Assembly (NCBI GenBank): GCA_002839805.1
Contig: PGYT01000027.1
Location: 1 to 35,972, forward strand
DNA length: 35,972 bases
DNA from: Ignavibacteriae bacterium HGW-Ignavibacteriae-2
Lineage (GTDB): Bacteria > Bacteroidota > Ignavibacteria > Ignavibacteriales > Melioribacteraceae
Direction: 5' to 3'
A program made the translations under genes and the position numbers. Shown piece after piece: positions 3,589 to 35,793 of this stretch (position 1 is its first letter; each line of letters starts with the position of its first letter). The notes under the pieces were generated by a model that had not been told where the DNA came from, searched no databases, and saw only the letters and a program-made list of their open reading frames with translations.

Positions 3589-4632
3589 TTAGATAGAACT
3601 TGACCGTTTGATAGAATCACCACGCGATTGTGAAATATTATGTCCCAAAGCCTCTATACGGGATTTAATTTGGGAATGTATATCTAGTGGATCTTCATTA
3701 ATTCCTCTTTTATTAGTGTAGATTAAATAATTTTCGCGGTAGGGCGCCGGAGTAAAATTTGGCATTATTACATTGGCCCCTGCAGATAATCCTTTTTCTC
3801 TTCCAAAGTCATCGATACTGTCTAATGCAGTGGTTGCCGGAATATGAACGTTTTTTAACACTAATCTGACCACTGCCATAACTTTTTGTGTCATAAGAGT
3901 ATCTCCGGCCGGCATATTCTGATAAGGAGTATTTATTGAAGGAATAAATGGTCCGAACGCAGCCATATCAACATCAAGTTCTCTGCATAATAAAATATCG
4001 TCAGCAATGTCAGCGACAGTTTGATTCGGCAAACCTATCATATTACCAGAAGCGATCTGATAACCAATTCTTTTCAAAAATTTTAGATGTTGAATTCTTT
4101 CATCTAATTTCGCTTTTTTATGGTAAATTGAATATAATTTCGGGTTTGCCGATTCGTGCTTTAAAAGGTAACGGTCGGCTCCGGCAATTTTCCAGGTCTT
4201 ATATTCATCAAATCCTCTCTGCCCTAAACTTAATGTTATGGCAACATCATACTGACGCTTAATTGAATAAATCAAGTATGAAATAAGATCTGTATCAAAA
4301 AAACTATCTTCACCCGATTGTAAAACAATTGTCCTGATGCCATTATTATAAATTATTTTGGCTGTGTCTAAAATTTCTTCGGCGGACATTCTATATCTGG
4401 GTATAATCAAATTTTCTTCCCGTAATCCACAATACAAGCAGTGCTGAGTGCAATAATTAGAAAATTCTATCACACCTCGTAAATGGATTTCTTTGCCAAA
4501 ATAACTATCCCTAATTTCTTTTGCCCGCTGAAATAATTTATCAATTTCAACGGAATCTGATAGATTAAGCAGGAAGATGATCTCCTCCCTCGAATAACTA
4601 TCTTTGTTATATAGTATCTCTTTAATATTCAT
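3589..4632 (-). CDS. hydE: [FeFe]-hydrogenase H-cluster radical SAM maturase HydE
   Basis: Radical S-adenosylmethionine enzyme that helps build the dithiomethylamine-bridged di-iron subcluster of [FeFe]-hydrogenase. 347 residues, the family length. The radical-SAM cluster motif CX3CX2C is at Cys61, Cys65 and Cys68 (CTQHCLYC), inside the HydE-typical context RGVIEFSNYC; an AGADRYLLKHE segment and a YRENYLIY segment near the C-terminus are also family-like. No other clustered cysteines are present, so the optional second Fe-S site of some HydE proteins is absent. The gene follows hydG by eight bases with no clear ribosome-binding site, suggesting translational coupling. Neither HydF nor a hydrogenase subunit is encoded nearby. 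BioB and PylB are relatives, but the neighbour makes HydE firm. Confidence 0.93.
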   Translation of the reverse strand: MNIKEILYNKDSYSREEIIFLLNLSDSVEIDKLFQRAKEIRDSYFGKEIHLRGVIEFSNYCTQHCLYCGLREENLIIPRYRMSAEEILDTAKIIYNNGIRTIVLQSGEDSFFDTDLISYLIYSIKRQYDVAITLSLGQRGFDEYKTWKIAGADRYLLKHESANPKLYSIYHKKAKLDERIQHLKFLKRIGYQIASGNMIGLPNQTVADIADDILLCRELDVDMAAFGPFIPSINTPYQNMPAGDTLMTQKVMAVVRLVLKNVHIPATTALDSIDDFGREKGLSAGANVIMPNFTPAPYRENYLIYTNKRGINEDPLDIHSQIKSRIEALGHNISQSRGDSIKRSSSI

Positions 4633-4640
4633 AAAGTTTA

Positions 4641-6032
4641 TTAGAAGAATACGTCCCTTTCACCGGAATCTACTTGATCAATCATTTTTCTAATTCGTTT
4701 TTGTGATAACTCGTTTTCTTTTTGAATTTCATTTTCAATTAATTTTTCTGCTTTAATTTTTGTTTCCGGCGATGCAAAATCGTTAGCATATTCTTTAAAC
4801 GTAGCTAAAGCGTTTGGAACACAGATTTTTCCTATGTTTCCGGTTTTAGCCAATTCCATAAATCTATCACCTGTTCTATTACTTCGGTAGCAAGCGGTAC
4901 AAAAACTAGGGAGATATCCTAAATCACAACAATCAGAAACTACTTCTTCAATAGTTCTGTGATCCCCAAGTTGAAATTGCTCCATTTGGTGTTCGTCCAT
5001 AATTTCTTGAGATTCTTTATATGATCCCGGGGAGGTTCTGCTGCCGGCACTTATTTGGGATACTCCTACTTCTAATAAGTCGCGGCGTAATTCAGCCCTC
5101 TCGCGTGTAGATAAAATAATACCTGTATAAGGAACAGATAATCTGATAACAGCAACAAGTTTCTTGAAATCTTTATCTTTAACCGCAAAAGGGGGCTTTT
5201 CAGCAACGGGAGCATTAAAGGCCGGTTCTAAACGGGGAACTGAAATCGTATGAGGACCCACGCCATATTTTGTATCCAGAGTAATTGCGTGCTGAAGAAG
5301 AGCTAAAGTCTCAAATTTATAATCTGTTAATCCGAACAATGCTCCGATTCCAACATCGTCGATGCCCGCTTCCAAAGCTCTTTCCATTGCAAATAGCCGC
5401 CAGTTATAATCCTTTTTAGGACCTTCTGGGTGCATTTTGATGTAAGTATCGTAATGATAAGTCTCCTGAAAACACTGGTAAGTGCCTATATCAAATTCTT
5501 TTAATCTTTTAAATTCATGAAGAGACAGCGGAGCACAATTTACGTTTATTCGCCTAATATTGTTTCCATTATAATTTACACTATATATAGTTTTAACCGC
5601 CTGTTCAATAAAATCTAAGGAAGATTTTTTTGGATGCTCCCCTGCGACGAGAAGAATCCTTTTTTGTCCTTGTTTAACAAGAAACTCCACCTCTTCCTTA
5701 ATTTCCTCAATAGAAAGAGTTTTTCTTTTAAGTTCCTTATTATCTTTTCTGAAAGCGCAATACAAACAATTATTTATGCATAGGTTTGTAATATATAATG
5801 GAGCAAATAATACTAACCTGTTTCCATATATTTTTTCTTTAACTTCTTTAGCGGTATGATAAAGGTGTTCTAAAACTTCTTCCGAATTTATATTTAACAA
5901 GGAGGCGCTTTCCATTAGGGAAAGTCCTTTTCCCGATCGTGCTTTTTCTATTACGTCTTTCTGAAAATCAATACTTTTTAATGAAGAATCAGAAATCAGT
6001 TCCTGAATATAATTTTCATTTATAAATTCCAC
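4641..6032 (-). CDS. hydG: [FeFe]-hydrogenase H-cluster radical SAM maturase HydG
   Basis: Tyrosine-cleaving radical SAM enzyme that makes the CO and CN ligands of the H-cluster iron synthon. The N-terminal CX3CX2C motif is at Cys85, Cys89 and Cys92 (CINNCLYC) in a ThiH-like barrel. Near the C-terminus a CX2CX22C motif (about Cys378, 381 and 404) is present; this second cluster site distinguishes HydG from ThiH. The start is probably GTG at 6032: a GAGGA box lies four bases ahead and the resulting N-terminus (EFINENYIQEL) matches the usual HydG beginning. A TTG at 6050 is the only alternative. First gene of the hydG-hydE pair. The full set of cysteines argues for an active enzyme. Confidence 0.94.
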   Translation of the reverse strand: MEFINENYIQELISDSSLKSIDFQKDVIEKARSGKGLSLMESASLLNINSEEVLEHLYHTAKEVKEKIYGNRLVLFAPLYITNLCINNCLYCAFRKDNKELKRKTLSIEEIKEEVEFLVKQGQKRILLVAGEHPKKSSLDFIEQAVKTIYSVNYNGNNIRRINVNCAPLSLHEFKRLKEFDIGTYQCFQETYHYDTYIKMHPEGPKKDYNWRLFAMERALEAGIDDVGIGALFGLTDYKFETLALLQHAITLDTKYGVGPHTISVPRLEPAFNAPVAEKPPFAVKDKDFKKLVAVIRLSVPYTGIILSTRERAELRRDLLEVGVSQISAGSRTSPGSYKESQEIMDEHQMEQFQLGDHRTIEEVVSDCCDLGYLPSFCTACYRSNRTGDRFMELAKTGNIGKICVPNALATFKEYANDFASPETKIKAEKLIENEIQKENELSQKRIRKMIDQVDSGERDVFF

Positions 6033-6225
6033 AACTTCCTCAAAAAACAATTATTAAGTATTTTGTTCCCCGTTTATCTTTTTAACAATAAGCATACCAA
6101 AGGTCAGAATATCTAATTTTCAATAGAATTTAACTATTAGGGATACTTATTTCTTAAAAAAGAGAAAGGATATGGAATTGTTTTCTATATTTTAGTGAAT
6201 AAAAGATAGAGTGTGTTAATCAAAT

Positions 6226-6251
6226 AAAAATGGGAGCTTGTGTGCTCCCAT
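6226..6251 (-). terminator. Rho-independent terminator after the LD-carboxypeptidase gene
   Basis: Eight-base-pair hairpin (ATGGGAGC at 6230-6237 with GCTCCCAT at 6244-6251) and a six-base loop. On the minus strand it is followed by a run of T. It lies 28 bases past the stop of the gene ending at 6279 and separates it from hydG. Confidence 0.8.
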
Positions 6252-6278
6252 CTTTTCAAAATTTATATTTGCTGTGGA

Positions 6279-7223
6279 TTATGAAACGGCGCTCTCAGTA
6301 ATATCAATAAAGCCTCTCGAAGCATTTACGTTACATTTAATACCAAAAGGAATTGTAATATTCTCTGAGATATGGCCGTGTTTTACGTTGTAGATTATAG
6401 GAATATTCAAATTTTCTAAATAATCTGAAATTACTTCATTTAAAGTTTGTGTTTTTTTTGAGGTATCGGAATCATAACAGTCAACAAATCTACCTAAAAT
6501 AATAGCGTTAACTTGTTTTAATACATTGCCTAAGCGCAATTGATTTAATAATCTGTCAACACGATATGGGCTCTCACCAATATCTTCCAAAATCAAAACA
6601 GAATCTTTAAAACTTGGGAAATACGGAGTCCCCATAATAGAGCCAACTAATGCGAGATTACCTCCTAAAAGTTTGCCTTCGCCCCTGCCTTTACTAAGAA
6701 TAAATAGTTTTTCCTGATTGGGATTTTGAATTTTCCCAATTTTCTTGGTGCTCGTAATCGTCCTCCAAAAAACCTCTTCTGTAAAAGTATCTACTTCATC
6801 TTTCCAAAAATCAACCGCCACCATTGGTCCGGCAAAAGTTACTAATCCTGTTTTTGCATAAAATGCTAGTTGAAGAGCGGTTATATCACTATAACCGACA
6901 AATATTTTGGGGTTCTTTTTAATCAAGTTATAGTTAATTTTATCAAGTAACCTACCGGAACCATATCCTCCTCTGACATTAAATATTGCTTTTACATTTT
7001 TATTACCAAACATTTCATGAAGATCAGAAAGTCTTTCATCGTCATCACCGGCTAAATAACCCTTCTCCTTACCAACATTTTTTCCGACTAATACATTATA
7101 ACCATTACTTTCTAAATATTTAATACCTTTTTCAATTCTTGTTAAATCATCTGGGGATGATGCTGGTGATATTACACCAATTAAATCACCCTTCTTCAAT
7201 TTTTGTGGTTTTACAGATCGCAT
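6279..7223 (-). CDS. ldcA: LD-carboxypeptidase (muramoyltetrapeptide carboxypeptidase, peptidase S66)
   Basis: Cuts the L,D-bond of the terminal D-Ala in murein tetrapeptides during cell-wall recycling. 314 residues, typical of S66. The catalytic triad can be placed by family motifs: nucleophile Ser112 in GYSDIT, Glu213 in LEDIGESPYRVDR and His284 in KHGH. The NVRGGYGSGRLLD segment (about 82-94) is the conserved strand-turn ahead of the nucleophile. No signal peptide, as expected for the cytoplasmic recycling enzyme. Single-gene unit: a terminator follows and a possible promoter (7258-7286) precedes it. Some S66 members are microcin C self-immunity peptidases (MccF), but nothing nearby suggests that role. 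Confidence 0.9.
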   Translation of the reverse strand: MRSVKPQKLKKGDLIGVISPASSPDDLTRIEKGIKYLESNGYNVLVGKNVGKEKGYLAGDDDERLSDLHEMFGNKNVKAIFNVRGGYGSGRLLDKINYNLIKKNPKIFVGYSDITALQLAFYAKTGLVTFAGPMVAVDFWKDEVDTFTEEVFWRTITSTKKIGKIQNPNQEKLFILSKGRGEGKLLGGNLALVGSIMGTPYFPSFKDSVLILEDIGESPYRVDRLLNQLRLGNVLKQVNAIILGRFVDCYDSDTSKKTQTLNEVISDYLENLNIPIIYNVKHGHISENITIPFGIKCNVNASRGFIDITESAVS

Positions 7224-32571: not shown

Positions 32572-35500
32572 CTATTTAAGCAGCAACATTTTTTTAGTTT
32601 GCGAGAAATTATTCCCGGAAAAGTTATAGAAATATATTCCTGAAGATAAATTCGAAGCATTAAAATCAACAGTATAAATTCCCGCTTTCTCATATCCATC
32701 GATCAAGGAAGTTACTGATTCACCCAGAATATTATAAACTGTTAATTTATAATTTCCGGCCGATGGAATACTCACCTTTATTTGCGTGGTTGGATTAAAA
32801 GGATTTGGATAGTTTTGATCCAAATTGAATTCTGTTGGAATTGTTTCATCAGTATTCACTGCAGTAGTTGGTTTATTTACAGCCCATCTTAAATCACCTA
32901 AAGCTTCCCCATCATCGGCAGAATTATACATAGTTGAACCTTCTAAAAGGGTAAAATCCCCTGTTGACACATCAGCATACATAGGATCTACATCAAATAC
33001 AACATATGCTCCCATACGAAAAGCTGAAGAATCGTGTATAGAAATAGAGCCAACATTATAGAAATTAGTATAGTCTATAACAGATGCACCATAAATTAAA
33101 ATAGTTCTATTATGGGGTTCAATTGTATTTGAAAATATAGAGTTTTTAATTTCCGCATTAACTACGTAACGAGGTCTAATCATCTCGGCACGAAGTCTTC
33201 CTAAGTTGTTAAAAGTACAATGATTTACTTTAAATACTACTTCATTTCCTTGAATATAAATGCCTTCAGTATTTGTATCATACATCGTTGAATTACTAAT
33301 CTCGAAGTATTTTACTGTATTATCTGCGTCTTTTATTCTTATTCCTTCTTTGCCGCTATTGTACATTATACAATTTGTAAACATTACTGTATCAGCGAAT
33401 GCTTTGCTGTATCCTCTAAAAAAGTTACCGTTAGAATTATCCGGATAAACATCATGAAGAATGCAGTCATCAACAAATAAATTATATAACCCATCAACTT
33501 GTTCAGCTGATTTTAATAAATATTTTGCTGGTGTAGATGTGCTTGAGATACCATCGAGATCCAAACCTTTTAAATAGAGATTTCCGCCGGTTTTAATTTC
33601 AAAAAGAAATCTTGTAGTTGCCAAAGGATTAACATTTTTTAAAACTGGTTTTGTTGAAAGACCTTCAGCCGCTCTTACAGTTATTGTTTTGTCAACATAT
33701 AGTAAACTATCCAATAAATAGTCACCACTTTCTGTAAGCTCAATAATATCTCCGCTGTTTGCTTTTACAAGAGCTTCATAAATGGAGTTTCGCGCTGCGG
33801 TAACATGTATAACATTTAAGTCCGTATTCGGAGTATTGGTTGCCCACCTTAAATCACCCAATGCTTTACCATCATCAGCAATATTATATAGTGCAGAGGT
33901 CCCTAATAAAGTGAAGTCCGCATTTGCATGATCGGCATACTGAGGGTCGACTTCAAATAATACATTTTCACCCATCTGAAAATTTGCCGGATCATTAACT
34001 ATAATTAAACCAACATTGTAAAAGTCACAATAATCGATCACTGATGATCCGTAAATTACAATTGATGTGCTATGCGGCACCGGTGTATTTGAAAAAATGC
34101 TGTTTTTAATTTCGGCATCCAAAATATAACTTGGTCTAATCATATTTGTCTTATTATAGCCGAGATTATCAAAAGTACAATGATTTATTCTAAACTTAAC
34201 TTTGTCTCCCTGAACATAAATAGCCTCAGATTTAGTATTGTACATTGTGGAGTTGCTAATCTCAAAGTATTTTACAGTATTATCTGCATCTTTTATTCTG
34301 ATTCCTTCTTTGCCGCAGTTATAAAGAACACAATTAGTAAATTTTACACTATCAGCAAAAGTATCTCCATATGCCCTAAAAAAATTGCCATCTGAACCGG
34401 AAACAACATCACGGAGAATACAGTCATCGACTATTAGCTTATATTTTCCTGAAACCGAACTTGCGGTTTTGATGAGATATTTGGCAGGTGTTTCCGTATC
34501 GGCCATTCCATCAATATCCAGTCCTTTAAGAAATAAATTGCCTCCTGTTTGAATTTCGAATATGTATCTGGTACTAAGATTCGGATTGTTATTTTTGATA
34601 ATTGGTTTTGAAAGAAGATCTTGAGAAGCCACTATTGAGATTGTTTTATCAATAATCAGCAGGCTATCCAATAAATATTCACCACTTTGAGTTAGTTCCA
34701 GAACATCTCCATTTTTGGCAACTTTCAATGAATCATACAGTTCATTGTGCGCTAAGCCAACCTTGTGAATTTTAGGAATAAAAAGTTTTTTTTGTGCAGC
34801 TTTAGGATCGCCGATGGGACCGCCATTTTCGGCATAGTTATACAGTGGCGAGGATTCCAATATTGTAAAGTTTCCATTTTCCCTATCTGCGTATTGCGGA
34901 TCAACGTTAAATAAAACATTTTCACCAAAATCGAATACTGAGGTATCATGTATATCGATAGCGCCGACATTATAGAAATCGCAATAATCTACTATTGAAG
35001 CTCCGTAAATCAGTAATGCGCGCGTTTGAGGTTCTGGTACATTCGAAAAGATTGTGTTTTTGATTTGCGAGTCAGTTATAAATCTCGGTCTTACCATATC
35101 ATGATGCATATAACCCAAGTTATCGAATGTACAATGATTTACCCTAAAAATAACATTGTTCCCCTGAACATAAATACCTTCATGACCGGTATTAAACATA
35201 GTGGAATTTGATATTTCAAAATAATTAACTTGATTATCTACTTCTTTTAATCTAATTCCCTCTCTACCGCTATTATATAGCAAACAATCATTAAAAATTA
35301 CAGAATCAGCATATGTATCAGCGTACGCAATAAAAAAGTTACCGTTCTCATCTCCGGTATTAACATCACGCAGAATGCAGTCGTTTACAAACAATTTATA
35401 CGAGCCCACAATTGAACTCGCAGTTTTGATTAAGTATTTAGCCTGAACTCCAGATCCGGAAGCACCATTTAGGTCAAGTCCCTCAAGTGTGAGATTTCCT

Positions 35501-35793
35501 CCGGTCTTAATTTCAAATAAAAATCTTGTACCTATAGATGGATTATCAAATTTGATTATTGGTTTAGTTTTTAATTCTTCTGCAGCTTTAACGGTTATCG
35601 TTTTATCAATATATAAGAGGCTATCCAGTAAATATTCACCACTTTCAATTAATTCTAAAACGTCACCATCTTTAGCATTCAATAATGCGTCATAAATTGA
35701 ATTTTGCTTACTCAGAACAGGTATAACATTTTGACCATATATATCTCCAGCTAAAAAAGCAGATATCAAGGTCATAAAAATAAATCGTTTCAT
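32572..35793 (-). CDS. Secreted triple beta-helix protein with T9SS type A sorting domain
   Basis: 1073 residues: signal peptide (1-20, ending IYGQ); three tandem repeats of 319 residues (from 31, 350 and 669); and a type IX C-terminal sorting domain from about 987 (FNLDQNYPNPFNPTTQIKVS to QTKKMLLLK). Each repeat begins NSIYDAL..KDGDVLEL, continues YLLDSLLYIDKTITV and GGNL.L.GLDL.G, then a run of short beta rungs (DCILRDV, YFEISNSTM, GIYVQGN, NHCTFDNLG, KN.IFSN, DFYNVG), the pattern of DUF4957/DUF5123-like right-handed parallel beta-helices. Such proteins bind or cleave polysaccharides; no catalytic residues can be assigned. It is exported through the outer membrane and probably anchored. GGGG precedes the ATG and a strong terminator follows. 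Confidence 0.9.
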   Translation of the reverse strand: MKRFIFMTLISAFLAGDIYGQNVIPVLSKQNSIYDALLNAKDGDVLELIESGEYLLDSLLYIDKTITVKAAEELKTKPIIKFDNPSIGTRFLFEIKTGGNLTLEGLDLNGASGSGVQAKYLIKTASSIVGSYKLFVNDCILRDVNTGDENGNFFIAYADTYADSVIFNDCLLYNSGREGIRLKEVDNQVNYFEISNSTMFNTGHEGIYVQGNNVIFRVNHCTFDNLGYMHHDMVRPRFITDSQIKNTIFSNVPEPQTRALLIYGASIVDYCDFYNVGAIDIHDTSVFDFGENVLFNVDPQYADRENGNFTILESSPLYNYAENGGPIGDPKAAQKKLFIPKIHKVGLAHNELYDSLKVAKNGDVLELTQSGEYLLDSLLIIDKTISIVASQDLLSKPIIKNNNPNLSTRYIFEIQTGGNLFLKGLDIDGMADTETPAKYLIKTASSVSGKYKLIVDDCILRDVVSGSDGNFFRAYGDTFADSVKFTNCVLYNCGKEGIRIKDADNTVKYFEISNSTMYNTKSEAIYVQGDKVKFRINHCTFDNLGYNKTNMIRPSYILDAEIKNSIFSNTPVPHSTSIVIYGSSVIDYCDFYNVGLIIVNDPANFQMGENVLFEVDPQYADHANADFTLLGTSALYNIADDGKALGDLRWATNTPNTDLNVIHVTAARNSIYEALVKANSGDIIELTESGDYLLDSLLYVDKTITVRAAEGLSTKPVLKNVNPLATTRFLFEIKTGGNLYLKGLDLDGISSTSTPAKYLLKSAEQVDGLYNLFVDDCILHDVYPDNSNGNFFRGYSKAFADTVMFTNCIMYNSGKEGIRIKDADNTVKYFEISNSTMYDTNTEGIYIQGNEVVFKVNHCTFNNLGRLRAEMIRPRYVVNAEIKNSIFSNTIEPHNRTILIYGASVIDYTNFYNVGSISIHDSSAFRMGAYVVFDVDPMYADVSTGDFTLLEGSTMYNSADDGEALGDLRWAVNKPTTAVNTDETIPTEFNLDQNYPNPFNPTTQIKVSIPSAGNYKLTVYNILGESVTSLIDGYEKAGIYTVDFNASNLSSGIYFYNFSGNNFSQTKKMLLLK
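32836..33789 (-). repeat. Beta-helix repeat 3 (residues 669-986)
   Basis: Third copy of the internal repeat, opening NSIYEALVKANSGD. It shares the stretch from RIKDADNTVKYFEISNSTMY exactly with repeat 2, but its N-terminal third (RFLFEIKTGGNL) is closer to repeat 1. Confidence 0.85.
33790..34746 (-). repeat. Beta-helix repeat 2 (residues 350-668)
   Basis: Second copy, opening NELYDSLKVAKNGDV. Exactly 319 residues (957 bases), the same length as repeat 1, with no net indel. It ends in GDLRWATN, shared with repeat 3 but not repeat 1. Confidence 0.88.
34747..35703 (-). repeat. Beta-helix repeat 1 (residues 31-349)
   Basis: First copy, opening NSIYDALLNAKDGDV directly after the signal peptide. 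The end differs from the other two (PIGDPKAAQKK in place of ALGDLRWA), so it is the most diverged at its C-terminal edge. Confidence 0.88.

Follow-up and report, generated by a model that had tools for sequence, protein, structure and literature searches.

Within a 35,972-nucleotide stretch of DNA from Ignavibacteriae bacterium HGW-Ignavibacteriae-2 (assembly GCA_002839805.1, contig PGYT01000027.1; the whole stretch is called the window here), we analyzed a minus-strand gene for a 1073-residue protein that is probably a surface-displayed, multivalent array for alginate or a similar uronate, built of three copies with a single-tree history. Each of the three tandem units is best read, from sequence comparison and structure modeling, as a free-standing C-terminal domain of polysaccharide lyase family 6 (PL6), with the catalytic domain absent. 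The functional reading is based on the units themselves, a type IX secretion system (T9SS) sorting tail, homology to and a predicted fold in common with the PL6 C-terminal domain, the missing PF14592 catalytic domain, three PF14592 genes elsewhere in the source genome, and the adjacency of relatives to PL6-type genes. As for their history, the copies resemble old tandem duplicates more than a mosaic produced by recombination.

Pfam models matched the protein three times with DUF4957 (PF16318), three times with DUF5123 (PF17161), and once with Por_Secre_tail, one DUF4957 being followed by one DUF5123 in every unit; DUF4957 reached 92.5 bits (curated Pfam cut-off, 30.8) and DUF5123 93.6 bits (cut-off, 35.1), both scoring above the cut-off over three stretches. 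Pfam gives no function for these two families, which here build one beta-helix unit together, and the same combined unit occurs also in PL6 enzymes. A phmmer search of PDB sequences found the alginate lyase BcAlyPL6 (7dmk; E of 4.9e-21), matched in a single stretch at chain residues 428 to 744. A model of one unit, predicted from a four-row alignment, had a predicted local distance difference test score (pLDDT) of 75.9 and a predicted template modeling score (pTM) of 0.80, with residues 266 to 310 poorly predicted; its predicted fold is a beta-helix, the fold named in a preliminary description of this DNA. The top 11 rows of a Foldseek search with this model were all PL6 lyases. Aligned by VIA-align 2 with PL6 C-terminal domains, it gave Z scores of 31.7 (7dmk), 30.0 (Patl3640, 7o77), 29.8 (8bwk), and 29.7 (AlyGC, 5gkd), with 250 to 272 residues aligned for 7dmk, 5gkd, and 7o77; the next different protein was the alginate lyase 6kfn (Z, 23.8). 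A quick tree built from 66 units placed those of the window in a clade of their own (Shimodaira-Hasegawa-like approximate likelihood ratio test [SH-aLRT] support, 99) that grouped, with support of 81, with 13 units labelled PL6 C-terminal, a label resting on frame length, with PF14592 confirmed in 3 of the 13, the only 3 scanned. Nearest to the window units by tree path was a 908-residue PL6 enzyme of a genome from another family (G104). Sequence homology, predicted fold, and tree placement together argue that the units are PL6 C-terminal domains. Unlike the PL6 lyases BcAlyPL6, AlyGC, and Patl3640, however, the window protein has three tandem copies of the domain, no N-terminal catalytic domain, and a T9SS tail: PF14592 had no match in it at an E of 0.001, while the scanned two-domain PL6 relatives matched at 1e-105 to 1e-111. 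PF14592 and one C-terminal unit each are found in a 976-residue enzyme of the source genome, in L032, and in the G104 enzyme.

Two other functions have to be weighed against this assignment. The units could be weakly active lyases, which would make the protein a three-headed enzyme and not a binder; weak lyase activity is reported for the C-terminal domain of BcAlyPL6 in a review (PMC8618178), and many of the fold matches are polysaccharide-acting beta-helices, but the lack of PF14592 and a homology that lies with the C-terminal rather than the catalytic half of PL6 make this unlikely. We also give little credence to a surface adhesin or structural beta-helix with a non-uronate ligand: although one fold match is to the pneumococcal adhesin PfbA (Z, 22.9) and the scanned neighbor genes are not carbohydrate genes, PL6 C-terminal domains stand clearly above the other listed folds, and they do so by sequence as well.

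In BcAlyPL6, the C-terminal domain is described as helping to fix the substrate (PMC8618178); in AlyGC, it is described as acting in dimerization and as partly covering the active site (PMC6879350); and an account from 2024 calls the function of the second beta-helix domain in PL6 lyases not known and mentions substrate access and binding as a proposal (PMC11381880). For the window protein, we propose that the T9SS would export it to the cell surface, where its three units would offer several sites for holding alginate or some similar uronic-acid polymer, possibly with a gain in avidity, and that the held polymer would feed PL6 lyases encoded at other loci of the source genome. Two marks of T9SS type A cargo were found, namely, a sorting domain above its cut-off (NCBIfam TIGR04183, 44.6 bits versus 23) and a genomic SprA channel (SprA_N, 194.8 bits versus a cut-off of 27). 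The motif of the tail would suit an Ignavibacteria-like lineage. Several points weigh against the functional part of this proposal. PL6 also includes chondroitinase B, which leaves room for a different uronate polymer as ligand; no site for binding was identified in the units; a model of two units was of too low a quality to reveal how they pack (pLDDT, 54.7); and no alginate locus is visible around the gene, whose scanned neighbors are an aldehyde dehydrogenase gene and mostly housekeeping genes.

As the preliminary description had reported, there are three tandem units, with starts at 35703, 34746, and 33789 on the minus strand and a start-to-start spacing of 319 codons at both steps. Units 1 and 2 match in length (319 residues) as a net result, a one-residue alignment gap and linker differences cancelling each other; unit 3 has 309 residues up to an end that we chose ahead of the T9SS tail. 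The sequences quoted there were found as well: units 1 and 3 share RFLFEIKTGGNL, units 2 and 3 share RIKDADNTVKYFEISNSTMY, and units 1 and 2 share CDFYNVG and GENVLF. Identity is nearly equal among the three pairs, both in amino acids (189/315, 183/309, and 194/308, or 60, 59, and 63%) and in nucleotides (64.4, 64.7, and 66.9%). The nearest neighbor changes along the unit, with 6 switches in 40-column windows and each pair best somewhere; this pattern is real as a description, but the switching is no more than chance gives. In 500 alignments simulated on one tree without recombination, each of the three pairs was the nearest at some point in 86%, and at least 6 switches, the observed number, occurred in 29%.

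A single rooted tree probably suffices for the three copies. With ten outgroup units, the best topology joined units 1 and 3 apart from unit 2 (approximately unbiased [AU] test, 0.955; 0.070 and 0.028 for the others), and no segment gained significantly for any rooted topology (permutation p of 0.326, 0.330, and 0.322); the 40-column windows that leaned to another topology did so by at most 1.3 log-likelihood units. Unit 2 has a short branch (0.18), whereas units 1 (0.36) and 3 (0.29) have long ones. Because the three units form their own clade, tandem duplication in this lineage appears to be the origin of the array. Such duplication ordinarily proceeds by unequal exchange, and to that extent the mechanism suggested earlier is supported; its other half, gene conversion read from the mosaic pattern, is not, the rooted-topology test being flat. 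Identical codons among same-amino-acid codons numbered 91/187, 90/181, and 99/190 in the three pairs, compared with 89, 86, and 91 expected from the codon usage of the three units themselves; on the whole, silent sites have reached saturation, and exchange, if there was any, would have to be old. The same residue is kept in all three units in 149 codon columns, a count that leaves out Met and Trp, which lends no support to a varied ligand-binding face and, together with the saturated silent sites, points to purifying selection.

Shared residues also fit one tree when six PL6 C-terminal units serve as outgroups to polarize them. In 42 columns, units 2 and 3 have a residue in common that differs from unit 1: in 19, the pair matches an outgroup and the odd unit does not, 1 has the reverse polarity, and 22 are not polarizable. 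As 19 of the 20 polarized columns retain an outgroup letter, the stretch identical in units 2 and 3 is probably largely ancestral; G104 reads KEGIRLKDESSNVKYFEVSNST at this segment. Shared-derived columns number 7 for units 1 and 2, 11 for units 1 and 3, and 1 for units 2 and 3, and those of the first two pairs are interspersed, with no segregation along the unit (p of 0.25). After the duplication, the copies would have diverged under purifying selection along this tree, with unit 2 changing least, and the changing nearest neighbor would result from unequal branch lengths and retained ancestral residues.

Some of the statistics favor exchange among the units and thus count against a single-tree history. 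GENECONV-like permutations (six statistics for each of three pairs, 18 tests) gave a codon-identity tract of units 1 and 3 in columns 108 to 145 (18/20 codons; uncorrected p of 0.011) and an all-site tract of units 2 and 3 in columns 146 to 165 (uncorrected p of 0.015). The two tracts adjoin yet name different pairs, as in a mosaic; corrected for the three pairs alone, they would stand at about 0.03 and 0.045, respectively, and they fail only once all six statistics are counted too, neither surviving correction for all 18 tests. Two further statistics are marginal: the longest pair-identical run, the stretch of units 2 and 3, has a P of 0.022 by simulation, and switches of the agreeing-pair label number 62 versus 72 expected (permutation p of 0.024); the nulls for runs and switches take columns as independent, and the clustered constraint of a real protein would make them liberal. 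A scan of the same label was not significant (p of 0.21 by permutation and 0.24 by simulation). A converted tract is expected to raise both amino acid and silent identity. Around columns 108 to 145, the only codon tract, amino acid identity of units 1 and 3 is low (0.47 to 0.53 in the 40-column windows from 81-120 to 111-150), making it unlike a converted tract. The silent excess inside the stretch of units 2 and 3 was not significant (15/24 versus 84/166; p of 0.19), nor was silent identity significantly raised in amino-acid-defined tracts of the window units (Fisher p of 0.19 to 0.35); silent third positions of columns identical in all three units held no tract (p of 0.11 or more). A true mosaic, with the three units swapping sequence by gene conversion, gains from the uncorrected tract statistics (p of 0.011 to 0.024) and from exchange in related proteins, described below, but on balance we consider it improbable. 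The flat rooted-topology test is the reason for setting conversion aside as the favored reading; the statistics are not all clean.

Related proteins carry one, two, or three units. Proteins of 1355 to 1426 residues from six genomes (L034 to L037, L039, and L099) resemble the window protein in having three units, a T9SS-type tail, and no PF14592 match (in G001, the one scanned); they differ in carrying InlB-type repeats too (G001), in units only about 21 to 36% identical to those of the window, and in the concerted evolution of units 1 and 2 but not of unit 3. Clustering of units 1 and 2 by protein is seen in G002 and G016 (bootstrap, 100), in G017 (92), and weakly in G015 (54), but not in G119; a split with bootstrap of 100 sets the G001 pair apart from the rest. 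Unit 3 groups by position. For units 1 and 2, a position-wise tree was rejected (AU, 1.9e-15), while a full grouping by protein was not (AU, 0.30). Windows 1-40, 21-60, and 281-320 favor the position-wise tree by about 51, 17, and 67 log-likelihood units, whereas all 40-column windows within columns 41 to 300 prefer the protein-wise grouping, with margins of about 32 to 107 units. Edges that group by position around an interior that groups by protein suggest that the pair predates the split of these genomes and that its interior has been homogenized since, although selection keeping the edges position-specific could contribute to the edge signal.

The best nucleotide tracts between units 1 and 2 lay in columns 1 to 67 (G119), 118 to 194 (G016), 151 to 268 (G015), 171 to 284 (G002), and 224 to 298 (G017), with p of 0.001 to 0.003 each when columns are taken as independent; G001 had no such tract (p of 0.80). 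Compared with the best match at the same position in any other genome, identity within the protein was clearly higher over parts of the units in G002, G015, G016, and G017; the excess was slight and close to the start in G119 and came to at most 0.11 in G001. One-sided Fisher tests of silent support in amino-acid-defined tracts gave p of 0.24 (G002), 0.07 (G015), 0.02 (G016), 0.20 (G017), 0.07 (G119), and 0.86 (G001). In a control set, two-unit proteins of seven other genomes favored the position-wise tree in 16/16 windows, by 168 to 324 units. Concerted evolution of units 1 and 2 is clear from these comparisons, with support that is strong by tree likelihood and modest at silent sites. By this evidence, the mechanism put forward for the window gene occurs in its family but is not shown in the gene itself.

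The 1355- to 1426-residue proteins adjoin PL6-type genes in all six genomes (G001, G002, G015, G016, G017, and G119), these neighbors being recognized by similarity and length, not by Pfam, and the frame of the G002 neighbor being cut by the contig end. Proteins of 796 to 839 residues from families f43 and f53 (G313, G437, G448, and others) also have tandem units and a T9SS tail (scanned in G313); they differ in having two units, each position an old separate lineage, and no concerted evolution. The two-unit protein of G313 adjoins two PF14592 genes and a heparinase II/III-type gene. In G125, the two units of a further protein (L102, positions 4549 to 7134, minus strand) are 99.3% identical in DNA (7 differences in 1050), unlike their flanks; on that identity, the pair is apparently a recent duplication or exchange. 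Domain matches were found in 21/164 genomes of the order, in 23/395 drawn from the phylum, and in 18/391 of the class, and a scan of contigs yielded a single relative, which is a PL6 enzyme from Bacteroidales UBA5342. A second protein with three window-like units was not seen in sets of 58, 164, 395, and 391 genomes, which overlap, with the best 5 to 13 candidates per genome scored and the 58-genome set covering the matches listed only. Our literature search found DUF4957 or DUF5123 in one paper, no work joining gene conversion, polysaccharide utilization, and alginate and none joining Ignavibacteria, type IX secretion, and alginate; a search on concerted evolution, gene conversion, carbohydrate binding, and tandem arrangement returned nothing bacterial by title.

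The distance from the gene to the end of its contig (C147) is 179 bases, in a source genome of 4.16 Mb and 147 contigs; this end is upstream of the gene, so an operon partner can be neither excluded nor demonstrated. The ten neighbor proteins scanned include, besides the aldehyde dehydrogenase, which is the closest, an IPP transferase, PCMT, a release factor, and NAD synthase. In the two other genomes of the genus, the aldehyde dehydrogenase had only 24 to 29% matches, making synteny unusable for finding orthologues. A horizontal origin was weighed since the nearest unit sits in another family; the GC content of the gene (33.7%) is close to that of the rest of the window (34.4%), which is not decisive. 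Features of the gene are collected in Table 1.

Table 1. Features of the three-unit gene and its product, in window positions
Feature	Positions	Strand	Remarks
Coding sequence, 1073 amino acids: apparent signal peptide, three PL6-C-terminal-like beta-helix units, T9SS tail	32572..35793	-	
Apparent signal peptide, about residues 1-20	35734..35793	-	By-eye reading of the translation
Unit 1, residues 31-349, DUF4957 and DUF5123	34747..35703	-	
Unit 2, residues 350-668	33790..34746	-	Predicted fold matches PL6 lyase C-terminal domain
25-residue stretch (GKEGIRIKDADNTVKYFEISNSTMY) in unit 2, identical in unit 3	34240..34314	-	Probably mostly ancestral residues
Unit 3, residues 669-977, DUF4957 and DUF5123	32863..33789	-	
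Unit 3 copy of the 25-residue stretch GKEGIRIKDADNTVKYFEISNSTMY	33280..33354	-	
T9SS type A C-terminal sorting domain, residues 995-1069	32587..32811	-	PF18962, 4e-10; TIGR04183, 1.1e-11
Terminator-like hairpin and T run, directly past the stop codon	32523..32550	-	11 pairs, at gene end; 3 such sites in the whole window versus 1.8 expected by chance

Elsewhere in the source genome, the window protein as query gave 132 matches, nearly all to the T9SS tail alone, and the genome seems to export a large set of T9SS cargo. Two loci on other contigs, L033 (3 to 2489, plus strand, on C82) and L046 (171 to 1820, minus strand, on C28), each stand where a contig begins within or at what resembles, judged against G001, a single PL6 locus that the assembly may have divided. 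L138 (1390 to 3738, plus strand) is a further PF14592 protein, in which a much-diverged stretch matches unit 2 residues 7 to 173 at 29% and in which a by-eye reading shows no T9SS tail.

For the family as a whole, we tentatively suggest that the PL6 C-terminal domain may be an alginate-binding module that is also used as free-standing surface tandem arrays, in which conversion would keep the interiors of adjacent copies alike while their edges stay position-specific; the window gene might then be a three-copy array in which any exchange has long stopped. The comparison carries a warning, as three diverged copies alone cannot demonstrate a mosaic. The six-genome set provides a clear case in which neighboring glycan-handling domains evolve in concert, and the matched control shows no such pattern; free-standing arrays would allow binding to be measured apart from the catalytic domain of PL6 lyases.

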